From a virus, in the IMG/VR virus record IMGVR_UViG_3300023174_004943, positions 1-30,555 of that record: a DNA stretch of 30,555 nt; one strand, 5' to 3'. The notes under the pieces are model-generated. The model saw only the letters and a list, made by a program, of their open reading frames with translations, did not search any database and was not told the DNA's origin. Shown here in pieces: positions 522 to 29,100 of the stretch. The position numbers and the translations under genes were made by a program. Each line of letters opens with the position of its first letter. The stretch's first letter is position 1.

Positions 522-548
522 AATACTCTAGATTATTAATTGGTGCAT

Positions 549-986
549 ATGAAAACAAAATTAATTAAAGCATATATGAAAACTGCGGAGACATTCGCAG
601 AATTATCACATGCTCGACGACTGCATGTGGGTGCTATTGTGGTCAAGGATGACAGGATAATCAGTATTGGCTACAATGGTATGCCGGCAGGTTGGGATAA
701 TGACTGCGAAGATCAGATCTATCACGAAGATGGGTTTCACATTACTTTAAAAACTAAACCGGAGGTACTACATGCTGAAACTAATGCGATCGCTAAATTG
801 GCAAGGTCAAATGAATCTGGCCTTGGCAGTGATATGTTTGTTACCCACGCTCCTTGCTTAGACTGTGCCAAACTTATCTATCAAGCAGGCATCAAACGAG
901 TATGGTTTGGTGCTGCTTATAGGGATGGTGCCGGAGTAGATTTTCTTAAGACGTCGGGAATCGAAGTAGAACAGGTAAACATATAA
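549..986 (+). CDS. dCMP deaminase
   Basis: This 145-residue protein is a cytidine/deoxycytidylate deaminase-fold enzyme that converts dCMP to dUMP, the substrate of the ThyA enzyme also encoded in this window. The zinc and catalytic motif HAE is at residues 75-77 and PCLDC supplies Cys103 and Cys106. Length and motif order match phage dCMP deaminases. I start at the ATG at 549 rather than the in-frame TTG or GTG just upstream, because the protein then begins MKTKLIKAYM as in relatives; no clear Shine-Dalgarno is present. The stop overlaps the next start as TAATG. A strong extended -10 promoter lies just upstream. Confidence 0.92.
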   Translation: MKTKLIKAYMKTAETFAELSHARRLHVGAIVVKDDRIISIGYNGMPAGWDNDCEDQIYHEDGFHITLKTKPEVLHAETNAIAKLARSNESGLGSDMFVTHAPCLDCAKLIYQAGIKRVWFGAAYRDGAGVDFLKTSGIEVEQVNI

Positions 987-5515: not shown

Positions 5516-5754
5516 ACCATTCCCCATCTTAAATTAAAATATGTTACATTTTTCTCGTCGAGCTCGGCTGTTATCCTAACGACATGCCCCCAATGATACG
5601 GGTCACCGCCTAAATAATAAACAGGAGTTTCGATTGCATTTTGCATTACCCATTGCCCCTGTTCACTCTGTTCCCACTTGTACAACGGTTCGGCCGCATA
5701 TATCATAGGGTCTTCGACATCTCCCAATTTAAATTCATGTACTACAATTTTCAT
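5512..5754 (-). CDS. Small conserved phage protein downstream of thymidylate synthase
   Basis: An 80-residue acidic, Trp/Tyr-rich protein starting MKIVVHEFKLGDVEDP. It is linked on both sides by overlapping codons: TAATG with thyA and ATGA with the epimerase. It resembles small hypothetical proteins I associate with marine T4-type phages, where the LGDVEDP and WEQSEQGQWVM segments recur. No enzyme motif, membrane segment or signal peptide is visible. Tight coupling to thyA suggests expression with the nucleotide genes, but no function can be assigned. Confidence 0.8.
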   Translation of the reverse strand: MKIVVHEFKLGDVEDPMIYAAEPLYKWEQSEQGQWVMQNAIETPVYYLGGDPYHWGHVVRITAELDEKNVTYFNLRWGMV

Positions 5755-6671
5755 TATACAGCCATTGGGGCAGCTATAGTTCCGTACGATTCATATCCGT
5801 CCAAACGAATGTCTGTCATAGTGAATCCGTTGATATCTTTGACATCTGGGTTAAGCCAAAGAGTTGGAGTAGATAATGGTTCACGTGATAATTGTTCTTT
5901 TACCTGTTCAACATGATTCAAGTATATATGTGCGTCGCCGAGTACGTGAACGAACTCGCCTACAGCTAATCCGCACACTTGTGCAATCATGTGTGTGAGT
6001 AGACTGTAGCTTGCAATGTTAAATGGGACGCCTAGAAACATGTCGCAACTACGTTGATACATTTGACAACTTAGTCGATTGTCTGAACTAACGTAAAACT
6101 GAGCAAAGCAGTGGCACGGGGGCAAGGCCATGGCATCTAATTCGCCTGGATTCCATGCTGATATGATATGTCGTCGTCCGTGTGGATCTTGCTTAATACC
6201 GTCAATCAATTGTTTAAGTTGATCAACTTCCTTGAAGTGGACACTTCCTGCTCTATTATATGAAGTGCCAAAATCATCCTTGAAAGAATATGCTTCATGT
6301 TCCACTGGGGTGCGCCAGTGGCGCCATTGTACACCATAAACACGACCTAAATCACCTTCAAATTTGGCTTTGGGTTGCCAGTAAGGTGCTGTGGCATTGG
6401 CAGTCCAGATGGTTGTCTTGCTAGACTCGGTGCTACCATGTAATAACTCTCGCAACCGCTTTTCATCCCCTGAACCTTCAATGAACCACAGCAACTCTGA
6501 AACTACGCTACGCCATGCTAGCTTTTTGGTCGTAATCGCCGGAAAAGATTCTGCAAGATTATATCGTTGTTGCATACCAAACAGACTAATAGTTCCAGTA
6601 CCCGTTCGATCCTGTTTAGTTGCTCCATTGGTCAACACTTCCTTTAAGGCATTTAAATATTGTTTTTCCAT
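5754..6671 (-). CDS. thyA: Thymidylate synthase (ThyA type)
   Basis: This 305-residue enzyme methylates dUMP to dTMP with methylene-tetrahydrofolate. It shows the ThyA hallmarks: QDRTGTGT near residues 20-26, LPPCHCFAQFYV with the catalytic cysteine (Cys186), RSCDMFLGVPFNIASY and GDAHIYLNH. It is about 40 residues longer than the E. coli enzyme (264), the extra length falling mainly in the middle (about residues 85-145). It lies 12 bases downstream of the DHFR gene, so the two folate-linked enzymes are co-transcribed, and dCMP deaminase on the other strand supplies the dUMP. No promoter is visible directly upstream. Confidence 0.97.
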   Translation of the reverse strand: MEKQYLNALKEVLTNGATKQDRTGTGTISLFGMQQRYNLAESFPAITTKKLAWRSVVSELLWFIEGSGDEKRLRELLHGSTESSKTTIWTANATAPYWQPKAKFEGDLGRVYGVQWRHWRTPVEHEAYSFKDDFGTSYNRAGSVHFKEVDQLKQLIDGIKQDPHGRRHIISAWNPGELDAMALPPCHCFAQFYVSSDNRLSCQMYQRSCDMFLGVPFNIASYSLLTHMIAQVCGLAVGEFVHVLGDAHIYLNHVEQVKEQLSREPLSTPTLWLNPDVKDINGFTMTDIRLDGYESYGTIAAPMAV

Positions 6672-6683
6672 ATTAACATTGTA

Positions 6684-7193
6684 TTACAGCGGCCTAAAAA
6701 TGTCAATGTTTTTGTAAGTCATCCAAATACATTTACGATCGGAACTTGGTGCAGCCCCTCTTGCTTGAAATATATTCAAATATTTTCTAAGATCCAATTT
6801 AGTATCTGCTCTGAATTGGCCTTTGAAGTGTGTCACATGTGCTTCATCTACCAGATCTTTAGTGGTCATTAAAATTTCTGGCCCACCAACAATCCATATG
6901 GTTTTATTTGGATTGTCCACAGCAATTTTTTTAATAGACTGAACTATATCGCCTTTGATAGTTTTAACATTGGTGTATCCGAATATGGGTCGATTGGTAA
7001 TCACAAACGTGGTTCTGTCAGGCAAAGGCTTGGGCATCTTAGGGTCGTCCCATGTACGGCGGCCCATGATGACTATATTGCCTGTTGTCTGTTCTTTAAA
7101 ATATTTTAAATCTTCGTTGTGGTGCGGCCATGGGAGGGAGCCATTGAAACCCATTCCTCCCCAATGATCTACTGCAAATATACTTTTAATCAT
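6684..7193 (-). CDS. folA: Dihydrofolate reductase
   Basis: A 169-residue type I dihydrofolate reductase that regenerates tetrahydrofolate from the dihydrofolate released by ThyA, which is encoded next. Motifs are GGMGFNGSLPWPHHNEDLKYF with the catalytic acid at Asp28, IVIMGRRTWDD in the NADPH-binding region and IWIVGGPEILM. Length is normal for the family. The start overlaps the previous gene's stop by ATGA. Together with ThyA and dCMP deaminase it completes a self-contained dTMP module, usual in T4-type phages. Confidence 0.95.
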   Translation of the reverse strand: MIKSIFAVDHWGGMGFNGSLPWPHHNEDLKYFKEQTTGNIVIMGRRTWDDPKMPKPLPDRTTFVITNRPIFGYTNVKTIKGDIVQSIKKIAVDNPNKTIWIVGGPEILMTTKDLVDEAHVTHFKGQFRADTKLDLRKYLNIFQARGAAPSSDRKCIWMTYKNIDIFRPL

Positions 7194-9971: not shown

Positions 9972-11264
9972 TCAAACTCCTGCAAGTCGTTTGGCTTCTT
10001 CATAGTGTGCCCACACACCAAACTCTGGTTCGACGTCGGGGTTGCCTTTAATGACCCATACTGTATCACAATAGTCTTTAATTTCATTTGGACGGAATCC
10101 AAAGAAACAGTAGTCTGTAAACATAATCAGTTTCTTGGGTTCGATATCGTTTTCTTTTAACCATTCCCAGACACAATGCGGATCAGTACCACCGCCACCA
10201 CCGGGTTCGTAACTGGTAATATCTTCCATGTTTTCGCTAGTATACAGCACAGGATTGTAGACTTCAGTGTCCCAGGTCAATATACGAACTTTATACTCGT
10301 CGTAGGCTTCCATAATGCCTTTAACTTCGCTCAAAAAGTCCTTCAAGTCTTGTTCACTGATACTGCCCGAAGCGTCAATTCCTACGCACACATCAATCTG
10401 TGTGCCCGGATTCATGCCAGGCATAACAGCATCCAAGTGCCAGCTACGACGATTTGGTCTCATCCAAGTAAAGTCGTCTTTAACAGTAGACTGGATTTGT
10501 TGTTCCAACAGCTCTTGCCAATTAACTACAGGTTTTGTCAAATCTTTAATTAGACGCTTAACACCAGCCGGCACATTACCCACGCCCACAGCCTGTGCAG
10601 CCTGCAACAATGCTTCACGGATTTCGTCTTTGATTTGACGACGTTCCTCGTCGCTTAAACGTGGCCTGCCTTTGCCTTCGCCTTCTTTTTCATCGCCGCC
10701 ATCACCATCGCCTTCGCCATCCAAGTGCTCATCGATCATTTGTTCTAGCAACTGACCGATGTCGATTTTTTCTGCGTTTTCGTACAAGTCGTCGTAGACT
10801 TCTTCGGCGCTCCAACCTTTGTATTTTACATCATACAAGCAAGGAGTAATTTTGTCGCCAATACGTTGTTCGATTAAGTCAGCATTAACACAAAAGTCAG
10901 CGGCACAATTAAATAGACGGGGGTCTCTATCCAAACCAACACGGGCCAAATGGTCATACACGTTATGCAACACTTCGTGACCAAACAAGAATTCAACTTC
11001 TTTGGGTTTGAGTTTGTTGACAAATTCAGTATTGTAATAAAAGTTTCGACCATCAGTTGCGGCTGTGGTCAACCAACTGTCAGCATTGACCAGTTTAAGA
11101 CGAGTAGCCAAGTTACCAAAAAACGGAGCCCGGAGCAAGAGTCCAATACGTGCAGTTACTAGTTTTTCTCGAACAGTAAGATCCAAACGAGCATCTACCG
11201 TGTCAGATAGACGGCCGCCTAATTTGGGATTAATTTTAGATTTTTCAGATGAAGTGGTTGCCAT
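9972..11264 (-). CDS. VWA-domain / zinc-metallopeptidase-like protein (DUF2201 type), MoxR partner
   Basis: The 430-residue protein has two parts. The N-terminal putative metallopeptidase-like domain carries a zincin HExxH motif, HEVLH, at residues 96-100. The C-terminal von Willebrand A-like domain has the metal-ion-dependent adhesion site DASGS (Asp297, Ser299, Ser301) and a glycine-rich GGGGGTDP loop. An acidic Gly/Asp/Glu linker around residues 180-200 joins them. The gene lies next to the MoxR AAA+ ATPase, the usual pairing of MoxR with VWA proteins, which together remodel or load metals into client complexes; the phage client is unknown. It has its own consensus promoter and an AGGAG ribosome site, so its level can be set separately from the ATPase. 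Confidence 0.9.
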   Translation of the reverse strand: MATTSSEKSKINPKLGGRLSDTVDARLDLTVREKLVTARIGLLLRAPFFGNLATRLKLVNADSWLTTAATDGRNFYYNTEFVNKLKPKEVEFLFGHEVLHNVYDHLARVGLDRDPRLFNCAADFCVNADLIEQRIGDKITPCLYDVKYKGWSAEEVYDDLYENAEKIDIGQLLEQMIDEHLDGEGDGDGGDEKEGEGKGRPRLSDEERRQIKDEIREALLQAAQAVGVGNVPAGVKRLIKDLTKPVVNWQELLEQQIQSTVKDDFTWMRPNRRSWHLDAVMPGMNPGTQIDVCVGIDASGSISEQDLKDFLSEVKGIMEAYDEYKVRILTWDTEVYNPVLYTSENMEDITSYEPGGGGGTDPHCVWEWLKENDIEPKKLIMFTDYCFFGFRPNEIKDYCDTVWVIKGNPDVEPEFGVWAHYEEAKRLAGV

Positions 11265-11287
11265 GTGTACTCCTGTTTAATACTTAT

Positions 11288-11316
11288 ATTATACTACAAT
11301 ATTGAATTTCGTGCAA
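11288..11316 (-). promoter_or_regulatory. Sigma70-like promoter of the VWA/peptidase operon
   Basis: On the minus strand the -35 box TTGCAC (11311-11316) is 17 bp from the -10 box TATAAT (11288-11293). The spacer starts GAAATTC, an element shared with three neighbouring promoters. An AACAGGAG ribosome site follows before the ATG at 11264. The rest of the 151-bp gap shows only a weak GGGG/CCCC inverted repeat after the MoxR stop and no gene. Confidence 0.8.
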
Positions 11317-11415
11317 GTAATACCTTGGTATTAATAATTAAAGACCACATTGTATCTAAATAAAATTGGGGGACTTACGGTCGAAAGGAGAGAAATGCCC
11401 TGCCCCGTGACTCTT

Positions 11416-12522
11416 TTATTTTTGGCTTGCGGCAATAATGTACTTACCGAAACGCTTGTGGAACTCGTCGAAGTTCTTGAGCTTGCCCGGAACAAAAGGC
11501 AAATCGTAAGTGGTAAGCGCAACTCGAGCACCCATAACAGTCAATTCTGTACTAAAATTATCCATCATGTACTTGAAGAAGTTATCCGCCATACTATGCC
11601 ATTCGTCTTTTGGCTTTTCGCCTTTGATTGGTGCCGCATCCTTCAACTCATAGCACATAGCAATAGTCAGGGAGTACATGGCGGACACTTCTTTAACTTT
11701 GAGGTCTGTTACTTTGCCACTCAAAATATCCGCAGGCTTGGGCAATTGACCTGCAACTTTACGGTGAGCCATGAACTTAACTGCAATACCTTCACCAACT
11801 GCACCTGCAATCAAATCAGTCAATTCGCCATCTGTCAGATCGTCTTCCAACAACTCCGACACAAAGTTCCAAGAACGGGGAGTAGCAAACGAACGTGAGC
11901 TAGAACGTGGATCAAAATCAAACAAGTCTTGCTTGGCAAAACCAACATAACCCACAACGTCCTTATGGACTTTATTGTGAACAGCCCAGTTCTCCCAACT
12001 AGAATGATCCACACGCATTTCCAAGTGGACAAAGCGGTTAGCCAACGGAGCAGGCATACGATAAGTGACACCTTTGTCACTTTCACGGTTACCTGCGGCA
12101 ATAACCACAACATTGTCTGGCAAATGATACTTGCCGATACGTCGATTCAAAATCAGCTGATATGCCGCCGCTTGAATACTGGGAGCTGCTGAATTCATTT
12201 CGTCCAAGAACAGAACAACCACAGGATGTTCTTTAGCAGTGGCTTCGCTAGGCAAGTCAATTGGTGGTGCCCAATCCATAAGACCCAAGTCTTTATTAAA
12301 ATAAGGAATGCCGCGTAAGTCTGTAGGCTCCATCTGCGCCAATCGCAAATCAATCATATGACCACCAAGTTCTTGCGCGATACTGGCTACCAATTCAGAC
12401 TTACCAATACCGGGAGGCCCCCACAAAAAGAGAGGACGTTGTTTCTTAAAACATGTCTTAATACTACGACGAGCAGATTCAGACGTCACTGTTCGGTGTT
12501 CACCGATTGCTTCTTTAGCCAT
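11416..12522 (-). CDS. MoxR-type AAA+ ATPase
   Basis: This 368-residue protein has Walker A GPPGIGKS (residues 35-42), Walker B VVVLFLDEMN (Asp107, Glu108), a sensor segment VVIAAGNRESD and an arginine-finger region APLANRFVHLEM, in the order expected for MoxR AAA+ ATPases. Such ATPases drive conformational changes in, or metal insertion into, client proteins with a VWA-domain partner. The partner gene follows after a 151-bp gap with its own promoter. A clear AGGAG site at 12529-12533 sets the start. Pairs like this are found in marine myoviruses, where their role is unsettled. Confidence 0.93.
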   Translation of the reverse strand: MAKEAIGEHRTVTSESARRSIKTCFKKQRPLFLWGPPGIGKSELVASIAQELGGHMIDLRLAQMEPTDLRGIPYFNKDLGLMDWAPPIDLPSEATAKEHPVVVLFLDEMNSAAPSIQAAAYQLILNRRIGKYHLPDNVVVIAAGNRESDKGVTYRMPAPLANRFVHLEMRVDHSSWENWAVHNKVHKDVVGYVGFAKQDLFDFDPRSSSRSFATPRSWNFVSELLEDDLTDGELTDLIAGAVGEGIAVKFMAHRKVAGQLPKPADILSGKVTDLKVKEVSAMYSLTIAMCYELKDAAPIKGEKPKDEWHSMADNFFKYMMDNFSTELTVMGARVALTTYDLPFVPGKLKNFDEFHKRFGKYIIAASQK

Positions 12523-12549
12523 TGCTAACTCCTTTGCATTAAAAAATAT

Positions 12550-12578
12550 ATTATAACTGATTTACGAATTATTGTCTG
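12550..12578 (-). promoter_or_regulatory. Sigma70-like promoter of the MoxR gene
   Basis: The minus strand reads -35 CAGACA (12573-12578), a 17-bp spacer beginning ATAATTC, then -10 TATAAT (12550-12555). The -35 is weak but the -10 is consensus, and the AATTC element at spacer positions 3-7 matches the neighbouring promoters. The ATG is 27 bases beyond the -10. Confidence 0.65.
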
Positions 12579-12604
12579 TTGTATTTTTGCAACAATTAAA
12601 CATT

Positions 12605-12820
12605 TTAATCCATGGGCACATCACGCATTGGTTTGCGTCCAGTCCAATGCCCGTAGGTTACACAAAGACCTTTGACTTTGATGCCCATCGGGGATTCGGC
12701 AGTTTCTACGGATACCTTTGCACTTTGGCATGCCCGTTGATCTTGCAACACCACATGTCGTTTGTCAAGATAATCACCGCCAGGACTAAACATGGAAATA
12801 ATCAATACCCATTGATTCAT
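12605..12820 (-). CDS. Small conserved phage protein (KVKGLCVTYGHWTGRKPM)
   Basis: A 71-residue protein with a hydrophobic start MNQWVLIISMFSPGGD and a C-terminal GIKVKGLCVTYGHWTGRKPM. The second block is one I have seen in small marine phage proteins. The N terminus is weakly hydrophobic but too short and too polar to be called a signal peptide with confidence. The start overlaps the preceding stop as ATGA. An overlapping plus-strand frame (12572-12835) is a shadow. The function is unknown. Confidence 0.72.
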   Translation of the reverse strand: MNQWVLIISMFSPGGDYLDKRHVVLQDQRACQSAKVSVETAESPMGIKVKGLCVTYGHWTGRKPMRDVPMD

Positions 12821-13128
12821 GCTGTCACCATCTGACCTTCAACAATCTCCAGCATGTTGGCCGGGATCTTCCACAGGCCGCCGTCCTTATCATTACGAAC
12901 TGTGACATATTTAATGGCAATCTTTTTTACAGTGCCTGTGGCACCCGCGGGGTTCTTGGAACTGACCCAACGCACTCGAATGCCCACATCCAGGTTGCGT
13001 TTGACCTGCTTGCGAAGACTGGTTTGGTTGAAACGTATAGCATCAGCCATGCTACGAAGTTCCACGTCAGTCCACTTGCCAAACATGATAGCAGAATTAA
13101 CCTGCTGAATTGATGTAAGTTTTTCCAT
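12817..13128 (-). CDS. Small SH3/KOW-like phage protein
   Basis: The 103-residue protein has a helical N-terminal half (FGKWTDVELRSMADAIRF) and a beta-rich C-terminal half VGIRVRWVSSKNPAGATGTV, then KKIAIKYVTV and GLWKIPANMLEIVE. The VGxRVxW...GxxGTVxKI pattern is like the KOW/SH3-like barrels that bind RNA or protein. It has a strong upstream promoter and an AACAGGAGCCCA ribosome-site context nearly identical to that of the next upstream gene. The function is unknown. Confidence 0.78.
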   Translation of the reverse strand: MEKLTSIQQVNSAIMFGKWTDVELRSMADAIRFNQTSLRKQVKRNLDVGIRVRWVSSKNPAGATGTVKKIAIKYVTVRNDKDGGLWKIPANMLEIVEGQMVTA

Positions 13129-13157
13129 TCTGGGCTCCTGTTAGTTTCTATACAAGT

Positions 13158-13186
13158 ATTATAACAAAATCTTGAATTATGGACAA
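13158..13186 (-). promoter_or_regulatory. Extended -10 sigma70-like promoter
   Basis: The minus strand reads -35 TTGTCC (13181-13186), a 17-bp spacer beginning ATAATTC and ending TGT, then -10 TATAAT (13158-13163). TGn before the -10 makes it an extended promoter. It serves the 103-residue protein starting at 13128, with an AGGAG site in the leader. Confidence 0.8.
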
Positions 13187-13192
13187 CCAAAA

Positions 13193-13444
13193 TCAGTTGG
13201 CCATTAAAGTGATTTGAACGTCAATGCCTTCGTGCGTGATGCTCACACCCACTGGGCGACCATCGCCTGTAAAGCTGCTGTGACGGCGATCGTAAGCCAG
13301 TTTTTGGATGGCCAGTCGCAGGGCAGCACCGTGGCTTGCTGTGGCTATTTTTGTGTAGATGTCATTGATGGTACCGTACATGCCAAAACCGTTGACGATA
13401 AAACGAATTTTTGTGCTGTTACTAAATCCTGATACGTGTCGCAT
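13193..13444 (-). CDS. Small conserved phage hypothetical (83 aa)
   Basis: An 83-residue protein starting MRHVSGFSNSTKIRFIVNGFG, with MYGTINDIYTKIA, GAALRLAIQKLAYDRRHSSF and a final GVSITHEGIDVQITLM. Alternating beta and helix suggest a small alpha/beta domain. There is no recognised motif. It stands alone between its own strong promoter and that of the next gene, so it may be expressed monocistronically or read through. An AACAGGAG ribosome site precedes the ATG. The function is unknown. Confidence 0.75.
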   Translation of the reverse strand: MRHVSGFSNSTKIRFIVNGFGMYGTINDIYTKIATASHGAALRLAIQKLAYDRRHSSFTGDGRPVGVSITHEGIDVQITLMAN

Positions 13445-13475
13445 TTGGGCTCCTGTTTTGTTACTCTATGTCTAT

Positions 13476-13504
13476 ATTATAGCAAAAAGGCGAATTTCGG
13501 ACAA
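13476..13504 (-). promoter_or_regulatory. Extended -10 sigma70-like promoter next to a terminator
   Basis: The minus strand reads -35 TTGTCC (13499-13504), a 17-bp spacer beginning GAAATTC and ending TGC, then -10 TATAAT (13476-13481). The -35 begins four bases after the terminator hairpin of the upstream operon, giving a compact terminator-promoter junction. Confidence 0.82.
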
Positions 13505-13508
13505 GAAA

Positions 13509-13529
13509 AACCCTGTATCGAACAGGGTT
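13509..13529 (-). terminator. Rho-independent terminator of the RNase H / radical SAM operon
   Basis: On the minus strand AACCCTG and CAGGGTT form a perfect 7-bp stem around a 7-base loop, followed by TTTCTTG. It lies 12 bases after the stop of the 119-residue protein and directly before a new promoter, so its role as an operon end is well supported. Confidence 0.8.
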
Positions 13530-13541
13530 AAAAAGTAGTAC

Positions 13542-13901
13542 TTAGGTGTTACTTTCTAAGTTGTTCAAATAAGTAGCTAAATCACTGCCCTGTAATTGTA
13601 GCCAAACAGCGTCCTGATCATCAAATACAATAAACTTATTGGTTCTACTCCAGTAGTAATATGGTCCAGGAAAAAACCGTTCCAACTGAAGTAAATTTTT
13701 ATTAGTTAATGGTTTGTCTAACTCGAATATATGTGTTTGGAGTTTGAGTTCTTTGACCACAAACTGATAACCCGTCATGCTAAATCTGAGACTATTTTTA
13801 TCGGTAAAATTATGCCAAAGGAATTTTAGAAATGCAGGTGATTTACCAACTTGCAGGGAAAATATTTTCGTTAACTGATCTTGATTATATCTTTTACCCA
13901 T
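13542..13901 (-). CDS. Conserved phage hypothetical (last gene of the radical SAM operon)
   Basis: A 119-residue protein with YNQDQLTKIFSLQ, FLWHNFTDKNSLRFSMTGYQ, PGPYYYWSRTNKFIVFDD and AVWLQLQGSDLATYLNNLE. The FDDQDAVWLQLQGSDL block resembles a family of phage proteins of unknown function. The first eight bases overlap the radical SAM stop, so translation is coupled. A strong terminator follows. There is no leader-peptide-like or Cys-rich region that would mark it as an obvious substrate of the radical SAM enzyme. Confidence 0.8.
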   Translation of the reverse strand: MGKRYNQDQLTKIFSLQVGKSPAFLKFLWHNFTDKNSLRFSMTGYQFVVKELKLQTHIFELDKPLTNKNLLQLERFFPGPYYYWSRTNKFIVFDDQDAVWLQLQGSDLATYLNNLESNT

Positions 13902-15093
13902 GCATAAACGGTTTTAAAAGACTGTACCATTCTGGAAATGCATCAGAGAAATTTTGATTTCTAATTTTATCTAACAAGGTCACTTCTTGACAAAAGATAG
14001 GCCACTGTACATCACAACCAGGCAAAGTCTGATCCAGTAATGTTTTGGATTTTGAATTAAAAATTCTCTTAGATAATATTTTTTTAACTGGTTCCGGGAT
14101 ATGACGTATATCGTAATGTTCGGGACTATGCACAAAATTTGTTTCTATGGGCAACTGATATTTTCTTAAATTTTTAATTATATTATCTAAATCAAATATG
14201 TTGTATGTTGACACAGTTAGTGTAATATGGCATTGGATATTACCATGACTGTTACAAAGTTGTTGATATTTTTCTAAATTGGTAAAAATTTGATCAGCAT
14301 TGGATTTATGACGAATGTATTCAAGTTGGGCACTGTTGTCGCTGTCTACACTAATACCTATGCTCACTGATTTATACTGTTTAAGTATTTCTATATATTG
14401 ATCCTGCCATATTGTGGCGTTTGTGTGCAACTGAAGATCTATATGACTGCTATAACCTTGATCCACTGCCAGTTTCAGACTTTCCCACATGCTAGGCGCC
14501 AACATAGGTTCGCCACCGTATATGTCAATGAACACTAATTGTTCAGCCCACTTATTTAATACAGGCCATATTTTATCATTGTCGGAATTAAACCCTAACC
14601 GTATGGTTTCAAATTGATTAGTGTAGTCTTTAAACGTTCCCACGAACTTGTTCCGTTCCGTATCCAATTGATAAAAATCTTGGTAAAGACTAGTACTGGT
14701 TGCAGGATTACACATTCGGCAGCCAAGATTACAAACGTTTCCGGGTTTAATAATTATTATTTTTGGTTGACTTTTTACAGGCTCTAAATCGCCTAATAGT
14801 CTATTCCTACTCTGACGAGGACTAGTTACTCCTGCATCTTCAAAATCCCAGCAAGCCTTGCATCCTGGTAGTCGGACACCTTTATCCAGGCCCGCGGCAA
14901 TCATTTTTCTAGTGGGGCTATTCCATGCAGATTCGAGACCGTGTTTGTGTAAATAGATTTTTTCTCTACCACCTGTTTCTAAACTTTGGGTGTTCAGATT
15001 GCAAACGCAAACATCGCCTTCGTTTTGCATGGCCAGACTAATGTGTGGCATCACGCAATATGTTGCGCTTTTAGGGAAAGATTTGGTCTCCAC
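13894..15093 (-). CDS. Radical SAM protein with N-terminal Cys cluster (twitch/SPASM-like)
   Basis: This 399-residue protein carries the radical SAM cluster motif CNLGCRMC (Cys121, Cys125, Cys128) and the IYGGEPM motif that contacts SAM. A second set of cysteines lies at its N terminus (Cys13, Cys29, Cys31, Cys78, Cys81), suggesting an auxiliary iron-sulfur site of the SPASM/twitch kind placed before rather than after the barrel. Related proteins occur in phages with unknown substrates. The start at 15093 overlaps the upstream gene by 23 bases; it is supported because YCVMPHISLAM, the usual N-terminal block, lies just after it. It is distinct from QueE, which is encoded separately. Confidence 0.9.
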   Translation of the reverse strand: METKSFPKSATYCVMPHISLAMQNEGDVCVCNLNTQSLETGGREKIYLHKHGLESAWNSPTRKMIAAGLDKGVRLPGCKACWDFEDAGVTSPRQSRNRLLGDLEPVKSQPKIIIIKPGNVCNLGCRMCNPATSTSLYQDFYQLDTERNKFVGTFKDYTNQFETIRLGFNSDNDKIWPVLNKWAEQLVFIDIYGGEPMLAPSMWESLKLAVDQGYSSHIDLQLHTNATIWQDQYIEILKQYKSVSIGISVDSDNSAQLEYIRHKSNADQIFTNLEKYQQLCNSHGNIQCHITLTVSTYNIFDLDNIIKNLRKYQLPIETNFVHSPEHYDIRHIPEPVKKILSKRIFNSKSKTLLDQTLPGCDVQWPIFCQEVTLLDKIRNQNFSDAFPEWYSLLKPFMHG

Positions 15094-19009: not shown

Positions 19010-19038
19010 ATTATAAAATGTGTTTCTATCATCATTTG
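19010..19038 (-). promoter_or_regulatory. Weak promoter candidate before the Lys/Ala-rich protein
   Basis: The minus strand has a consensus -10 TATAAT (19010-19015), but at 17-bp spacing the -35 is only CAAATG (19033-19038), which overlaps the end of queE. It may be an activator-dependent promoter or chance. Confidence 0.35.
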
Positions 19039-19886
19039 CCCCAGCCGTTGCCCCAAAGATCAACATGTAGTCGTGGGCTATAGTAGTAGCCCTTGGTTAG
19101 TGCCCAGTCTGCAACCTTTACACGATTTGCAGCATATGGAGTGACAACACCACCTTGTGGCATAACATAAACAACTCCTGTAAAGCCGCCTGCACGAAAC
19201 TCGTTAACAGCCTTTTCGACTTCTGCAAAGTGTTCTTCTGTTTCCACCACAAACTTCAAATAGACTGTGCCGACTTCTTGATAACTGTTGACAACATCTG
19301 GACAAATAGCTTCTTCCCACTTTTCTCCCGATGCACTTAGTTTAGCACTAACACTGAATGTAATTTCTCTATTGGGACCAAATTTTTCTTTAAGATATTG
19401 TTTGAAACTTGATTGTAACTCCTGAGTACCATTTGTTTCGAATGTGATATTTTTTATGTCTGCCATATGTTCGTGACTTAGCAATTCTTCATACACACGT
19501 TGCCAACCTAGTAAAGGCTCACCGCCCGTGATCACAAGATGTACGTCATTGCCATTATCCTGTGTCCACTTGTGATTGGGTGTTAGTGTTAACATCTGTG
19601 CAACTAAGTCATTGGCTTCAATAGTAGGACTCAGATGTTTGAATGCAGGATGCCATGACGCATACGAATCACATCCGGTTTCTACTAGAGGTAGTTCTTC
19701 AAACTTGTTATATAGATGCACTACTTCGGCCACATCATCTGCACCTGTACTCTTTTCTCCTGGCTTACAACCAAACCCTGCACAGGTAAAGTTACAACCA
19801 AAGGTTCGTAAAAACACACTAGGAACGCCAACAAAACGTCCTTCGCCCTGTGCAGAATAAAATAGTTCACTTACTTTGAGTTTCAT
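19032..19886 (-). CDS. queE: 7-carboxy-7-deazaguanine synthase (QueE), phage type with insertion in the cluster loop
   Basis: The 284-residue radical SAM enzyme converts 6-carboxy-tetrahydropterin to 7-carboxy-7-deazaguanine, the third step toward preQ0. Supporting features are the typical QueE start VSELFYSAQGEGRFVGVPSV, FLRTFGCNFTC (Cys31, Cys35), TGGEP (residues 120-124) and a final DLWGNGWG. The usual CxxxCxxC is not contiguous: Cys35 is followed by a loop of about 36 residues before TGCDSYASW (Cys72), which resembles the end of the canonical CxxxCxxCDT motif; Cys40 is another candidate ligand. The first 20 bases overlap the MazG-like gene. Confidence 0.92.
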   Translation of the reverse strand: MKLKVSELFYSAQGEGRFVGVPSVFLRTFGCNFTCAGFGCKPGEKSTGADDVAEVVHLYNKFEELPLVETGCDSYASWHPAFKHLSPTIEANDLVAQMLTLTPNHKWTQDNGNDVHLVITGGEPLLGWQRVYEELLSHEHMADIKNITFETNGTQELQSSFKQYLKEKFGPNREITFSVSAKLSASGEKWEEAICPDVVNSYQEVGTVYLKFVVETEEHFAEVEKAVNEFRAGGFTGVVYVMPQGGVVTPYAANRVKVADWALTKGYYYSPRLHVDLWGNGWGK

Positions 19887-21661: not shown

Positions 21662-22159
21662 TTATGCAAACAAGTCCTCGTTCCATTCTCTGTGTCCTTC
21701 ACGGTATGCCATGTTGCTTTGTGTTTCGCGAACTTCCACACGGTAGCACCATAAACGAGCTGCTTCACCTGGCCCCCACATTTCTGGAATGTAAACACCA
21801 TTAACATACTTGTACAGCATGTCACTTAGACCTTCACAACCCAGTCGGGGTAACACAACAATCTTGGCCATGTTCCGTTCTTGCAACAACTTGAATGTCT
21901 CCATCTCTGGATCATCTTGTGCCACAATAAGTGTATGGTCAAATTGATCTTCAAGTGTCTTCTTTAGTTCTTTCAACCCACCATAATCGGCCGCCCAGTT
22001 GCGGACATCTAGGTCATTTGTACCAAAGTAGAACTTCATTGAGAACGAGTAACCGTGTATCAAATTACAATGACTGTCTGCCCTCCACTGTCTGTATGCA
22101 CATGGAAATGCGTCGTGGTACTCTTTGGTTGAGGTATATTTGTAAACTACTGGTGTCAT
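21662..22159 (-). CDS. queD: 6-pyruvoyl-tetrahydropterin synthase / QueD-like protein (divergent phage type)
   Basis: The 165-residue protein resembles the QueD/PTPS fold: FPCAYRQWRADSHCNLIHGY, then FSMKFYFG, and later YGGLKELKKTLEDQFDHTL with the Asp-His pair. QueD converts dihydroneopterin triphosphate to 6-carboxy-tetrahydropterin, between FolE and QueE, both encoded here. The catalytic CxxxHG is present (Cys31, His35), but two canonical zinc histidines look replaced by tyrosines (Tyr22, Tyr37), so its metal site is unusual. It heads a six-gene operon with a perfect consensus promoter. Confidence 0.85.
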   Translation of the reverse strand: MTPVVYKYTSTKEYHDAFPCAYRQWRADSHCNLIHGYSFSMKFYFGTNDLDVRNWAADYGGLKELKKTLEDQFDHTLIVAQDDPEMETFKLLQERNMAKIVVLPRLGCEGLSDMLYKYVNGVYIPEMWGPGEAARLWCYRVEVRETQSNMAYREGHREWNEDLFA

Positions 22160-22251: not shown

Positions 22252-22280
22252 ATTATATTGCAATTTAAAAAAAATGTCAA
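22252..22280 (-). promoter_or_regulatory. Perfect consensus sigma70 promoter of the queD operon
   Basis: The minus strand reads TTGACA (22275-22280), a 17-bp T-rich spacer and TATAAT (22252-22257), an exact consensus at optimal spacing. The -35 includes the TGA stop codon of the desaturase gene. The predicted leader before the queD ATG is about 86 bases. Confidence 0.9.
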
Positions 22281-23101
22281 GTGTTTTCGGATGTTGATAC
22301 TGGTCGATACAATAATTTTTGAACGTAGTATTGTGTGTTAAGATACTTCCAATTTTTATTTATGTTGCTATCGGAGTAGTCCCATGGCTCATAATTTAAT
22401 CTTTTATCTTGATGGAATACATGATGACTTCTGTGCCATCCCTGATTGCATTGGAAAAACATCAAAATTACACTGTCTTTTCCTTTCCATTTATGGAAAT
22501 AAACATCTGTGACTTTACCTGCTGTAATTCCAATAATAGCAGGATAAACATAAAAAGTAACCCAAGTCCAAAAAGGAAAAAACAGCAACCAAATTAAAAT
22601 AGTACCTAAATGTATAGCAGGTCCGTATTTGTTAAAAAAATTCCAAGTGTCTTTGGAAAGTAATCCGCGATGATCGTCTTCGGTAAATTTAGATGCATCT
22701 AGTGCAGAATACATTCGCCCAAAACCTAAAATATATTTTAAAGCACCCTCAGCCCGAATCTTGAGATACACTGGATCTAAATGCGGTTTAACATCTGCGA
22801 ATTTATGATGCGTTACATGATGTGGTCTTTGATTTCTCATTTTAGCCCCGTATGCATGAAAAACAAAAAAACTAAAATATTCGATAAATTTATTTTTTGG
22901 TTTTAACACACCATGCAATAGGTATTCATGACGAACAGTTGTATAGACGGGTAAGAAAAACAAGTAGTAGTAAAGGTATCCGTACACCAAATATTCCACA
23001 GGATACATTACTAGTCCAAACAGTGTTGCTGATACTAGTATCAAATAATATTGAGCAAATAAAAAAGTTAAAATCTTATTAAGAAACTGTTTGATCATGA
23101 T
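22277..23101 (-). CDS. Membrane fatty acid desaturase
   Basis: The 274-residue integral membrane protein has the three histidine boxes of di-iron fatty acid desaturases: HEYLLH (residues 57-62), HHVTHH (93-98) and HRSHH (222-226). Hydrophobic segments flank them (about 10-50 and 164-192). Such enzymes insert double bonds into acyl chains and alter membrane fluidity, or process other lipids. The ATG at 23101 is preferred to a TTG at 23134 that would overlap the phosphoribosyltransferase. It is the last gene of its operon and its stop codon lies in the queD -35 box. It is a host-like metabolic gene, probably acquired from a bacterium. Confidence 0.92.
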   Translation of the reverse strand: MMIKQFLNKILTFLFAQYYLILVSATLFGLVMYPVEYLVYGYLYYYLFFLPVYTTVRHEYLLHGVLKPKNKFIEYFSFFVFHAYGAKMRNQRPHHVTHHKFADVKPHLDPVYLKIRAEGALKYILGFGRMYSALDASKFTEDDHRGLLSKDTWNFFNKYGPAIHLGTILIWLLFFPFWTWVTFYVYPAIIGITAGKVTDVYFHKWKGKDSVILMFFQCNQGWHRSHHVFHQDKRLNYEPWDYSDSNINKNWKYLNTQYYVQKLLYRPVSTSENT

Positions 23102-23118
23102 AGTTGTGTGATAATTAA

Positions 23119-23126
23119 TATTTATC
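23119..23126 (-). promoter_or_regulatory. Possible T4-type late promoter before the desaturase
   Basis: The minus strand reads GATAAATA followed by TTAATTA, overlapping the stop of the phosphoribosyltransferase gene, about 18 bases before the desaturase ATG. It matches seven of eight bases of the T4 late consensus, as does the octamer at 15380-15387. Support is weak. Confidence 0.3.
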
Positions 23127-23637
23127 GCCACCAACTTTCCCAGGGGAATTCAATCCAAACATCATTCTCGGCCTTGTTAATTTCTTCACCAACATAATCC
23201 ATTTTAATATTACATTTGCTAGACATATTGTCAAACAAAACTGCAAATTTCACATTGTGGTTCCAAACATCTGCCCATCGCGGATCGTTGGGTAAACAAC
23301 CACTGCGCCAGTCTTCCATAATCCAGTTAAAAGTCGCACCGCTGTCATTGATGTCGTCCACAATTAAAATATTAGGGGTGGAAATGTCCGGGTCATAACC
23401 GAATGCATCTTCCGCCATCCATAAGTTGCTTTCAGGTCCCATTCGATTATCACGCAAACTTACATTTAATGTATGCATCGGTACTCCCAAATAGTGGCTA
23501 ATCATAGTAGCAGGCACCAATCCTCCGCGATTGAGACCAACGATATAATCAGGCCTCCACTCGCTGTTACTGATGTCTTTGCAGATATTGGCAACTAATC
23601 CCAATAAATCTTTGTTGTTTAAGTGTCGTTTATTCAT
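23122..23637 (-). CDS. Phosphoribosyltransferase-like protein
   Basis: The 171-residue protein has the PRPP-binding loop ILIVDDINDSGATF, typical of type I phosphoribosyltransferases, and an earlier YIVGLNRGGLVPATMISHYL with the conserved glycine-rich turn. Members act in purine or pyrimidine salvage or transfer phosphoribosyl groups to other bases. With MazG and the deazaguanine genes close by, a role in nucleotide supply is likely, though the base is not deducible. A GGAG site lies 5 bases before the ATG. Confidence 0.88.
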   Translation of the reverse strand: MNKRHLNNKDLLGLVANICKDISNSEWRPDYIVGLNRGGLVPATMISHYLGVPMHTLNVSLRDNRMGPESNLWMAEDAFGYDPDISTPNILIVDDINDSGATFNWIMEDWRSGCLPNDPRWADVWNHNVKFAVLFDNMSSKCNIKMDYVGEEINKAENDVWIEFPWESWWR

Positions 23638-24479: not shown

Positions 24480-24508
24480 ATTATATTACGAAAATGTTTT
24501 AATTGCAA
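24480..24508 (-). promoter_or_regulatory. Sigma70-like promoter of the cupin-desaturase operon
   Basis: The minus strand reads -35 TTGCAA (24503-24508), a 17-bp spacer and -10 TATAAT (24480-24485). The -35 and most of the spacer lie in the last codons of the lipoprotein gene. The leader before the ATG at 24455 is about 18 bases and holds AAGGAA. Confidence 0.75.
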
Positions 24509-25787
24509 GATTAAGAACACCGTTTGTCATAGATGACACAATTAAGTACCAAACATTGTTAATTTTTATTGGCATGGCAGGAGCAATATAATTGGAATCT
24601 GCTGATGTCTCTTTTCCGAATGCGCTGATTTTGGCCGTAATAATATTTGATTGATTGAACGTGCCGCTGCCATTATTCAACCATAATTGATTGGGATTAA
24701 TATTCTCCCAGTCAAAATGCATTAACCAAATATCTTTATGACCATCACCATTGAAGTCAATGAATTTTGGAATATAAGAGCTATGAGTTGATGTGTTGTA
24801 ATTAATAATATTTGAATCTGTCGCATCTGTGAATACAAAATTTCCTTGATTGAGGTATAACTGCATCTTGCTTCGCTTGCCTCCTCCGTTGTATCCACTT
24901 ATGATAACAATATCGAGTAATCCATCCGAGTTCACATCTGATACTGCACAAGATACATCATGACTATATTCAACCCCAAATACGGTTTGTGTTAAACCCA
25001 AATTTCCTCTATCAAAATAAGGAACCGGCAAGGTATATGTTTGTGTTGGATTTAGGTTATTGTCTAATTCAAATATCATTGAATCCGAAATAGGAGAAAA
25101 TTGTGCATCAGTGTATATGTCTGTAATTAGCACTTGTGATCTTCCTGTGTTGTTGAAGTCAGCAATGCACACACCATTACCGTTCATTCCGGTGCCCGCG
25201 GATTTAAAACTAAAGTTTCCGCCCCCGTCATTAATCCACATGTGACCACTGCTGCTAACAACATCAATGTCGCCATCATTGTCAACGTCCCCGGCAGTGG
25301 CACCGTGATTATAAGTTGCCGTAGAGTATTCTGTTTTGGCATGCGATTGCCCGGGCCTACTGATATAAAACACACTCTTATAGGAATAAGGCGCCACATC
25401 CATAAATCCGGGCAAGAATATATCGTCTATGCCGTCTTTATTAAAATCTGCAATGATGGAATATTGTACAGACCAAGATACTGCTTCGCCTAAAATTTGT
25501 GTAGTAACATCAGTCAATCCCGAAGATTCTGCTTTGAAAATTTTCACCGGTGCAATCTTTGTTGAATTATTACTACTACTAGCCGATAGCCATCCGGTGG
25601 CTATAATGTGTGTTGCGCCGTCATTAGTAAAATGACCGGTATTAAGCGAAGGTACAAACCCGTTGTAATTTAACACGGTCTTATAAGAGACTGCATTAGA
25701 GGCAGGACTACTGCTTTCTCCGCCGCCGCCTCCGCCTCCGCATGCGGTTAATACTAAAGTAAACAAAAAAGGAATGAGTGTTTTCAT
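24486..25787 (-). CDS. FG-GAP/VCBS-repeat surface lipoprotein
   Basis: The 433-residue protein has a lipoprotein signal peptide, MKTLIPFLFTLVLTACGGGG, with lipobox LTAC and lipidated Cys16 followed by a glycine linker. The rest contains Asp-rich repeats of the FG-GAP/VCBS type: DFNKDGIDDI, DVDNDGDIDV, DVNSDGLLDI and DFNGDGHKDI, which bind calcium and fold as beta-propeller blades in integrin-like domains. It is probably anchored to the host outer membrane and displayed at or below the surface. The start at 25787 gives a standard signal peptide; a TTG five codons upstream is possible. The gene stands alone, with its own promoter, like a cargo (moron) gene. Confidence 0.9.
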   Translation of the reverse strand: MKTLIPFLFTLVLTACGGGGGGGESSSPASNAVSYKTVLNYNGFVPSLNTGHFTNDGATHIIATGWLSASSSNNSTKIAPVKIFKAESSGLTDVTTQILGEAVSWSVQYSIIADFNKDGIDDIFLPGFMDVAPYSYKSVFYISRPGQSHAKTEYSTATYNHGATAGDVDNDGDIDVVSSSGHMWINDGGGNFSFKSAGTGMNGNGVCIADFNNTGRSQVLITDIYTDAQFSPISDSMIFELDNNLNPTQTYTLPVPYFDRGNLGLTQTVFGVEYSHDVSCAVSDVNSDGLLDIVIISGYNGGGKRSKMQLYLNQGNFVFTDATDSNIINYNTSTHSSYIPKFIDFNGDGHKDIWLMHFDWENINPNQLWLNNGSGTFNQSNIITAKISAFGKETSADSNYIAPAMPIKINNVWYLIVSSMTNGVLNLAIKTFS

Positions 25788-25793
25788 TCCTTT

Positions 25794-25822
25794 ATTATAC
25801 AATCAACTTGATTTTTTGTCTG
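25794..25822 (-). promoter_or_regulatory. Promoter of the lipoprotein gene with internal palindrome
   Basis: The minus strand reads -35 CAGACA (25817-25822), a 17-bp spacer and -10 TATAAT (25794-25799), followed after six bases by the ATG. The spacer contains the palindrome AATCAAGTTGATT (25801-25813), which could be an operator. The only ribosome-site-like sequence, AAAGGA, abuts the ATG. Confidence 0.65.
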
Positions 25823-28246: not shown

Positions 28247-28357
28247 TTAGTCCTTTACTTGATATTGGGAATGTGGATAAGTTTGTTGCAACCATTCTAA
28301 CAAATCTTTGGCATAAGGGAGTCTTATATTATCGAACTTGTTGGTAATGTATTTCAT
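28247..28357 (-). CDS. Very small protein between folE and the 408-residue gene (36 aa)
   Basis: The 108-bp gap after folE is filled by a 36-residue frame whose ATG overlaps the folE stop (ATGA) and whose TAA ends one base before the next ATG. The product starts MKYITNKFDNIRLPYAKDLL and continues as a charged, aromatic helix-like segment. Its exact fit to the gap and its coupling support a gene, but it is too short for a family assignment. Confidence 0.6.
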   Translation of the reverse strand: MKYITNKFDNIRLPYAKDLLEWLQQTYPHSQYQVKD

Positions 28358-29100
28358 CGCGGTGCGAACTCTTGTTGCAATTTGATATTGTCAAAGAATT
28401 CTTTCTTAGTGCCCACATCTTCTTTAAATGCACCCCTTAGTACGGTTGTTTGGGTGAGACTACTATGTGCCATAATACCACGATTCTCACAACACCCATG
28501 GGTAGCCTGTATATAAACAGCAACGTCCTTGGATCCGGTTGCAAATTCGATTTCACGAGCAATATCCATACATAGTTCTTCTTGGAGAGTGCCACGTCGG
28601 GCACACCACTGTGCAATGCGGGTGTACTTCGATAAACCAATGAGTTTGGGACCAGCAATGATTCCAATATAAGCCACACCTGTAACAGGTTGGTGATGAT
28701 GCGAGCACATGCTCTTAAGCTCGCTACGCACCACCAGCATACCATCGTAGGCTCCGTCGGTGTCATTTGGAAAAGCTGTAGCATTAGGGCTCGTCTCGTA
28801 GCGCCCAGCCATGATTTCGTTGAAGTACATTTTTGCCAAGCGTCGCGCTGTGCCTTTTGAGTTTGGGTCATTTTCTCTGTCAATCAATAGTGCATCAAGT
28901 ACGCCTTCAAATGCTTCAGTGGCTTCATCAATGAGTTTTTCCTTGTCACCGTCATTGAGATATTCACTAATGTTGTCGCCTGCCCAGAATCTTTTACCGT
29001 CACGTTTGAACTTAAAGCGAAGATGATCACATACTCTGCCCAGGCCATAACCGCCGTTGCCTGCCATTGCGTCTAGTGCTGTTTCTTGTTTATCTGTCAT
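28354..29100 (-). CDS. folE: GTP cyclohydrolase I
   Basis: The 248-residue enzyme converts GTP to dihydroneopterin triphosphate, the first step of the preQ0 pathway and of folate synthesis. The zinc and catalytic motif is SMCSHHHQPVTGVAYIG (Cys132, His134-136), with the later HGCCENRGI holding the second cysteine ligand. It is somewhat longer than E. coli FolE (222). One base separates it from the mini-aminotransferase stop. QueD and QueE in this window are the following steps, so deazaguanine synthesis is the likely purpose; it may also feed folate for DHFR and ThyA. Confidence 0.95.
   Translation of the reverse strand: MTDKQETALDAMAGNGGYGLGRVCDHLRFKFKRDGKRFWAGDNISEYLNDGDKEKLIDEATEAFEGVLDALLIDRENDPNSKGTARRLAKMYFNEIMAGRYETSPNATAFPNDTDGAYDGMLVVRSELKSMCSHHHQPVTGVAYIGIIAGPKLIGLSKYTRIAQWCARRGTLQEELCMDIAREIEFATGSKDVAVYIQATHGCCENRGIMAHSSLTQTTVLRGAFKEDVGTKKEFFDNIKLQQEFAPR

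Follow-up and report, generated by a model that had tools for sequence, protein, structure and literature searches.

What is a short AATTC box doing at the same place inside the spacers of four neighbouring phage promoters, and do these promoters represent copies of one regulatory unit? The question is raised by the window, i.e., the whole 30,555-base virus record IMGVR_UViG_3300023174_004943 (IMG/VR), which is a fragment of an uncultivated phage. Related viral contigs were found to carry the box at one of two distances from the −10 hexamer, and each contig nearly always keeps to one of them. It is fairly likely that the promoters belong to sigma-70-type, probably early, promoter cassettes of uncultivated, largely jumbo phages with a T4-type gene for late transcription, and that these cassettes resemble the promoter-early stem-loop (PeSL) cassettes of T4-type phages.

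The window's promoters and their shared box

An earlier note, made from the letters of the window, had described four promoters with TATAAT at 17-bp spacing and (G/A)(A/T)AATTC opening the spacer. All four were recovered exactly where it had placed them, and all lie on the minus strand, which it had not mentioned. Its −35 hexamers hold for three of the promoters (TTGTCC twice, TTGCAC once); the promoter at 12550-12578 has CAGACA in place of a TTG hexamer. The leader AACAGGAGCCCA before the ATG is, as it had reported, common to both TTGTCC promoters. The members in the window are as follows.

P4, 13504-13476, minus strand: TTGTCC-GAAATTC-GCCTTTTTGC-TATAAT, with TTGTCC at 13504-13499, GAAATTC at 13498-13492, an extended −10 TGC and TATAAT at 13481-13476; before the 83-amino-acid open reading frame (ORF) at 13193-13444, minus strand
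P3, 13186-13158, minus strand: TTGTCC-ATAATTC-AAGATTTTGT-TATAAT, with TTGTCC at 13186-13181, ATAATTC at 13180-13174, TGT and TATAAT at 13163-13158; before the 103-amino-acid ORF at 12817-13128 and then the 71-amino-acid ORF, minus strand
P2, second subclass, 12578-12550, minus strand: CAGACA-ATAATTC-GTAAATCAGT-TATAAT, with CAGACA at 12578-12573, ATAATTC at 12572-12566 and TATAAT at 12555-12550; before the MoxR-type ATPase gene, minus strand, the orthologous promoter being retained in many relatives
P1, 11316-11288, minus strand: TTGCAC-GAAATTC-AATATTGTAG-TATAAT, with TTGCAC at 11316-11311, GAAATTC at 11310-11304 and TATAAT at 11293-11288; before the VWA/DUF2201 gene, minus strand
Fifth, weaker member, 25822-25794, minus strand: CAGACA-AAAAATC-N10-TATAAT; before an FG-GAP lipoprotein-like ORF at 24486-25802

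With a perfect −10, a 17-bp spacing and a ribosome-binding site plus ORF downstream, these are predicted sigma-70-like promoters before gene modules; it is because TATAAT and the spacing of the −35 are both kept that they look sigma-70-type. The CAGACA of P2 still matches the −35 consensus at four of six positions. WAATTC exactly 10 bp before TATAAT occurs four times in the window against 0.02 expected, and no dinucleotide shuffle of the window reaches four such sites. No box is present at two further TATAAT sites, 22252 and 24480, or in the thyA promoter (TTGACA-N17-TACAAT), so it marks a subset of promoters. Lipoprotein-like genes similar to that behind the fifth member are preceded by box promoters in two other contigs, G001 (283204) and G027 (85011).

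Recurrence, register and conservation of the box in relatives

A search with the first 25,000 bases of the window gave no near match among 50,697 phage records. The MoxR-type ATPase of the window led to relatives in viral contigs, 80 of which were kept; the closest is 86% identical, and the best identity to a cultivated phage is 50% (PA5oct group). Several related contigs, chosen by protein homology, are 200-355 kb long, and the group therefore includes jumbo phages. The 6.4-kb contig L088 (IMGVR_UViG_3300019093_000270) carries promoters identical to P2, P3 and P4 and thus represents, in a different sample, either this very phage or one almost identical to it.

When loci were fetched by protein homology, without use of the motif, AATTC was found before TATAAT 95 times at 10 bp and 21 times at 9 bp, compared with 0-13 times at any other distance from 0 to 35, near-identical contigs being included in these counts. 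Thus the enrichment of AATTC at this position, which the earlier note had made the touchstone of its idea, does exist in relatives, and its view that copies of one regulatory cassette stand before different genes is supported by it. Twelve large contigs, also chosen by protein homology, hold 34 WAATTC-N9/10-TATAAT sites and two sites of the reversed pattern. A wider set of 40 contigs, found partly via the motif and hence not independent, gave 102 and 6, respectively. Among unique sites whose −35 matches at least three of six positions, there are 82 at N9, 106 at N10 and 0-8 at other distances, in a set that includes loci found with the motif. The looser promoter form is present in at least 120 stretches of viral contigs and its permuted pattern in 57, several of which resemble real family variants, and no ratio of true to permuted matches is claimed. 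In the cultivated phages PA5oct, Phosso and Atu_ph07 the looser pattern stays at background (5, 0 and 9 matches; reversed controls 3, 0 and 3).

Iterated weight matrices, seeded with strict sites and counting only sites that exceed the best score of a shuffled genome, revealed 40 sites in G001 (338.5 kb) and 33 in G003 (352.8 kb). The consensus in these two genomes reads GGTTGACC-N2-AAATTCCC-AATTTTGC-TATAATA, after which the start region is conserved as well; of the 73 sites, 69 lie on the strand with most coding.

One register of the box, either 9 bp (N9) or 10 bp (N10) before the −10, is nearly always used per contig. Sites in the minority register number 11 against 35.9 expected, the minimum in 10,000 shuffles being 23; the shared descent of near-identical contigs is kept in this test, which does not yield a formal p-value. 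On the MoxR tree the states N9, N10 and none need 14 changes, compared with a shuffled mean of 37.4. The register of the box is largely a lineage trait. Promoters of the 103-amino-acid gene family belong to N9 in one group of phages and to N10 in others. Since the −35/−10 spacing stays at 17 bp, the box moves by 1 bp within a fixed frame. The genomes G004 and G012 (loci L401-L422) have the same promoter architecture with wholly different spacers, e.g., GGTTGACA...AATGGCTGTATAAT and GGTTGACA...AATGGCTGTATAATGCTATACATACACTAACAACAAGG in G004.

Promoters of the MoxR gene, gathered by orthology and aligned on −35 and −10 without reference to the box, provide a test of selection. Among 18 non-redundant ones, the mean consensus frequency is 0.88 at the AATTC positions and 0.49 at the other ten spacer positions, indicating stronger conservation of the box than common descent alone confers on its neighbours. 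Variants of the box, AATATTC or ATAAATC, occur in the MoxR promoters of some relatives.

The transcription programme of the relatives was also searched. A gp55-like late sigma factor (phrog_234) is encoded in six of eight large contigs, among them G001 (207037-207393), G003 (202326-202700) and G009, and in PA5oct. TAAATA lies upstream of 90 genes in G001 and 83 genes in G003 (loci L161-L195), where 13.5 and 8.8 are expected, and is a probable T4-type late promoter element. Together, the sigma factor and the TAAATA enrichment indicate T4-type late transcription. With the middle-promoter proteins of T4 the outcome was negative: MotA (phrog_1345) had no match in eight large relatives or PA5oct (T4 control positive, 1.3e-99), and AsiA (phrog_1166) had none in five relatives or PA5oct (T4 control positive, 2.4e-42). 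An activator or repressor structurally unrelated to MotA and AsiA may be encoded in the relatives.

Gene modules, hairpins and other genes of the window

The genes and the upstream repeats that accompany the four promoters are listed here.

13509-13529, minus strand: terminator-like hairpin, AACCCTGTTCGATACAGGGTT then TTTCTTGTCC, abutting the −35 of P4
13193-13444, minus strand: 83-amino-acid cassette gene without a family match; a homologue, F36, in L024
12817-13128, minus strand: 103-amino-acid cassette gene F7, with homologues in at least 80 viral loci
12605-12820, minus strand: 71-amino-acid ORF after F7 in the same orientation, weak match to phrog_3766
12577-12595, minus strand: inverted repeat TTGTTG-N8-CAACA, touching the −35 of P2
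11416-12522, minus strand: MoxR-type AAA ATPase, phrog_1297
11318-11333, minus strand: inverted repeat TAATACCAAGGTATTA, directly upstream of the −35 of P1
9972-11264, minus strand: VWA-like/DUF2201 metallopeptidase-like protein, PF13203 and PF09967, phrog_1314

Between the conserved gene F1 and MoxR, relatives carry one to four modules of a promoter plus a small gene, the order and content of which differ. The order is P-F7-P-F9 in L005, P-F9-P-F7 in L029 and P-F36-P-F7 in the window, and the permutation of modules between conserved genes indicates cassette shuffling. Recombination at the cassettes themselves would account for such a pattern, as we infer. Homologues of F7, whose position relative to neighbouring genes varies, were absent from the 50,697 phage records. 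Another ORF in this region, a radical SAM protein (PF04055) at 13894-15093 on the minus strand, lies between F0 and F1; because these two genes adjoin in the relatives compared, it appears to be an insertion specific to the window. The pair of MoxR and VWA/DUF2201 genes (9972-12522, minus strand) is conserved across the group, and in the window each has one box promoter. In PA5oct and Agrobacterium phage Atu_ph07, MoxR has neighbouring genes whose annotation is HNH endonuclease or hypothetical.

The hairpin at P4 has eight pairs and a T tail, and its folding energy (dG −11.3) was not equalled by any of 200 shuffles. Family promoters in L220, L222, L278 and L303 are directly preceded by hairpins much like it. 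Across the family, a perfect upstream stem of at least 7 bp was found at 18% of 192 sites, compared with 1.5% for shuffles and 2.6% for randomly chosen genomic positions. At P2, the pattern TGTTG...CAACA recurs at the same place in MoxR orthologues, and the RNA folding of the 51-nt stretch around it is not better than that of shuffles. The repeat type of P1 also precedes promoters in G001 and L018, and takes the form AAGTAATACCTTGGTATTACTT in L174; its folding alone is not significant.

Elsewhere in the window, two sets of metabolic genes can be recognized. A QueE-like radical SAM protein (19032-19886), a QueD/PTPS-like protein (21662-22159) and GTP cyclohydrolase I (FolE; 28354-29100), all on the minus strand, make up most of the 7-deazaguanine precursor pathway, suggesting that phage DNA or tRNA may be modified. 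Their NCBIfam scores lie under the curated cut-offs, whereas Pfam PTPS and GTP_cyclohydroI score above theirs. A thymidylate supply set, given in order of gene coordinates as deaminase, synthase and reductase, comprises a deoxycytidylate deaminase-like ORF (540-986, plus strand), thymidylate synthase (5754-6671, minus strand) and a dihydrofolate reductase-like ORF (6684-7193, minus strand). The ORF at 22277-23134 (minus strand) is membrane-protein-like, with the histidine clusters HHVTHHKFAD and HRSHHVFH; it resembles fatty-acid desaturases by eye, and NCBIfam and Pfam searches gave it no match.

What the cassettes may be and how they compare with known systems

According to the favoured account of PeSL-like early cassettes, each unit would consist of a −35, often flanked by a hairpin, a 17-bp spacer, TATAAT, a conserved start region and a leader with the ribosome-binding site, and such units would be placed before small genes that undergo gain, loss and reordering. 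Early in infection, the housekeeping sigma factor of the host, together with its RNA polymerase, would presumably read the −35 and −10. The box, at about −28 to −23, would be an additional promoter determinant under selection. Several points weigh against this account. The −35 hexamers of the window match the consensus at just three to four of six positions, compared with five typical of N9 genomes, and the extended −10 motif TGn is present in only two of the four sites (13158 and 13476). A convincing hairpin is found only at P4, the stretches upstream of P1-P3 folding no better than shuffles. G012, whose MoxR is 86% identical to that of the window, has no exact box site, and therefore the box is not essential to the promoter architecture. 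No gp55 or capsid gene was seen in the window, which is itself a fragment. Finally, both the early timing and the start sites of the family promoters are predictions from the sequence.

Within the favoured account, it is about evenly balanced whether a phage-specified DNA-binding protein reads the box and raises the promoters or later shuts them off. A box with a genome-typical position suggests a phage-specific reader; a phage factor would fit both the selection on the box and a register specific to each genome, although neither demonstrates it. The phage factor that the earlier note had proposed as a reader is a plausible candidate, and its alternative, altered sigma use, is likewise no more than a proposal; TATAAT and the 17-bp spacing are kept, and MotA and AsiA were not found in the large relatives searched. 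More specifically, a hitherto undescribed phage protein could bind the box and control an early regulon from within the spacer, the sequence and register of the box having co-evolved with it; this is put forward tentatively, at somewhat less than even chances. Lineages would then have private dialects, AAATTCCC at 9 bp, WAATTC at 10 bp and others in G004 and G012. A rival reading, less likely than not, is that the box is intrinsic to the contact between RNA polymerase and promoter, where an AT-rich upstream half of the spacer together with an extended −10 would strengthen the promoter without any phage protein. In N10 genomes TGn accompanies 75% of box promoters and 19% of the remaining promoter-like sites, and in N9 genomes 91% and 38%, respectively; T4 early promoters have additional conserved regions as well (PMC2988021). 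However, the conserved C and an exact register that differs by 1 bp between genomes while −35 and −10 are fixed do not fit well with this, nor would a general preference of the polymerase predict the other spacers of relatives with the same architecture (G004 and G012). A purely intrinsic effect is therefore disfavoured by the genome dialects.

That copying accounts for most of the shared spacer, with cassettes recombined and homogenised within genomes and dialects arising without a reader, is a weaker candidate. Within contigs, cassettes are near-identical over their whole length, leader included, and register and spacer dialect are genome-specific and follow clades, as copying would have it. 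Nevertheless, the CAGACA subclass before MoxR retains AATTC while the remaining spacer drifts between orthologues, and the box is common to the CAGACA and TTG subclasses despite their different −35 and leader, so that copying alone is disfavoured by the conservation in MoxR promoters. Activator-dependent middle promoters, in which MotA-like sigma appropriation would let the box (perhaps the whole TTGCTCGAAATTC) replace the −35, appear improbable. The element does lie around −30, near the place of the MotA box, and the −35 is often weak in N10 genomes (TTGCTC, TTGTCC, CAGACA). Against this stand the negative profile searches for MotA and AsiA with their positive T4 controls and the −35 scores, which in N10 genomes are 4.0 with the box and 4.01 without it (p 0.76), and in N9 genomes are stronger with it. 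The same N10 comparison led us to drop the idea that AATTC compensates for a weak −35. Very improbable is a host promoter class captured by the phages, with the box read by a host regulator: the −35/−10 framework is bacterial, but the strict promoter form has four matches in 84,980 prokaryote species genomes (among which the host may be missing), scattered over unrelated taxa, compared with at least 120 stretches of viral contigs that hold the looser form. A further candidate, AAATT-CCC-AATTT as a dyad operator, was set aside, being seen in the N9 consensus and weak in the window's four sites.

Through the family, promoters of an early type become recognizable by sequence in a widespread group of uncultivated large phages, and the genes of these phages can be assigned to likely expression classes even without RNA data. 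It also offers a natural promoter series in which the place of a spacer element differs between lineages by exactly 1 bp. Should a phage protein read the box, the family would be a newly recognized case of promoter control exerted by a phage from within the spacer; if there is no reader, it would be a clean test of how far copying alone can fix spacer sequence.

Compared with T4 early promoters, which have UP, −35, TGn and −10 elements plus further conserved positions (PMC2988021), the present promoters share TATAAT, often TGn, the 17-bp spacing and conserved positions beyond the core, but differ in the weak −35 of the window and in the conserved AATTC within the spacer. In T4 middle promoters, the MotA box WWWTGCTTtA stands in for the −35, at a distance of 12 ± 1 bp from the −10 (PMC2988021). 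Both systems have a phage-specific element near −30 with a sigma-70 −10; the present one, however, reads WAATTC, is placed 9 or 10 bp before the −10 and is mostly accompanied by a −35-like hexamer. T4 late promoters have a single TATAAATA-type element, in contrast to the TATAAT plus −35 found here.

The closest likeness is to PeSL cassettes of T4-type phages, reportedly the subject of work by Arbiol in 2010 and Comeau in 2014. To our knowledge, a conserved spacer box with a genome-specific register lies outside the definition of PeSLs. In PMC4503421, PeSLs are named as mediators by which T4-like phages shuffle genes. The likeness lies in a sigma-70-like promoter, at some sites joined to a hairpin, repeated before small genes in regions of gain, loss and reordering, and in the gp55-like late sigma factor of the relatives' genomes; the difference is that the hairpin is clear here in a minority of sites only. 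What resembles PeSLs in the cassette is of a known kind, and the spacer box with its lineage-specific register is the new part.

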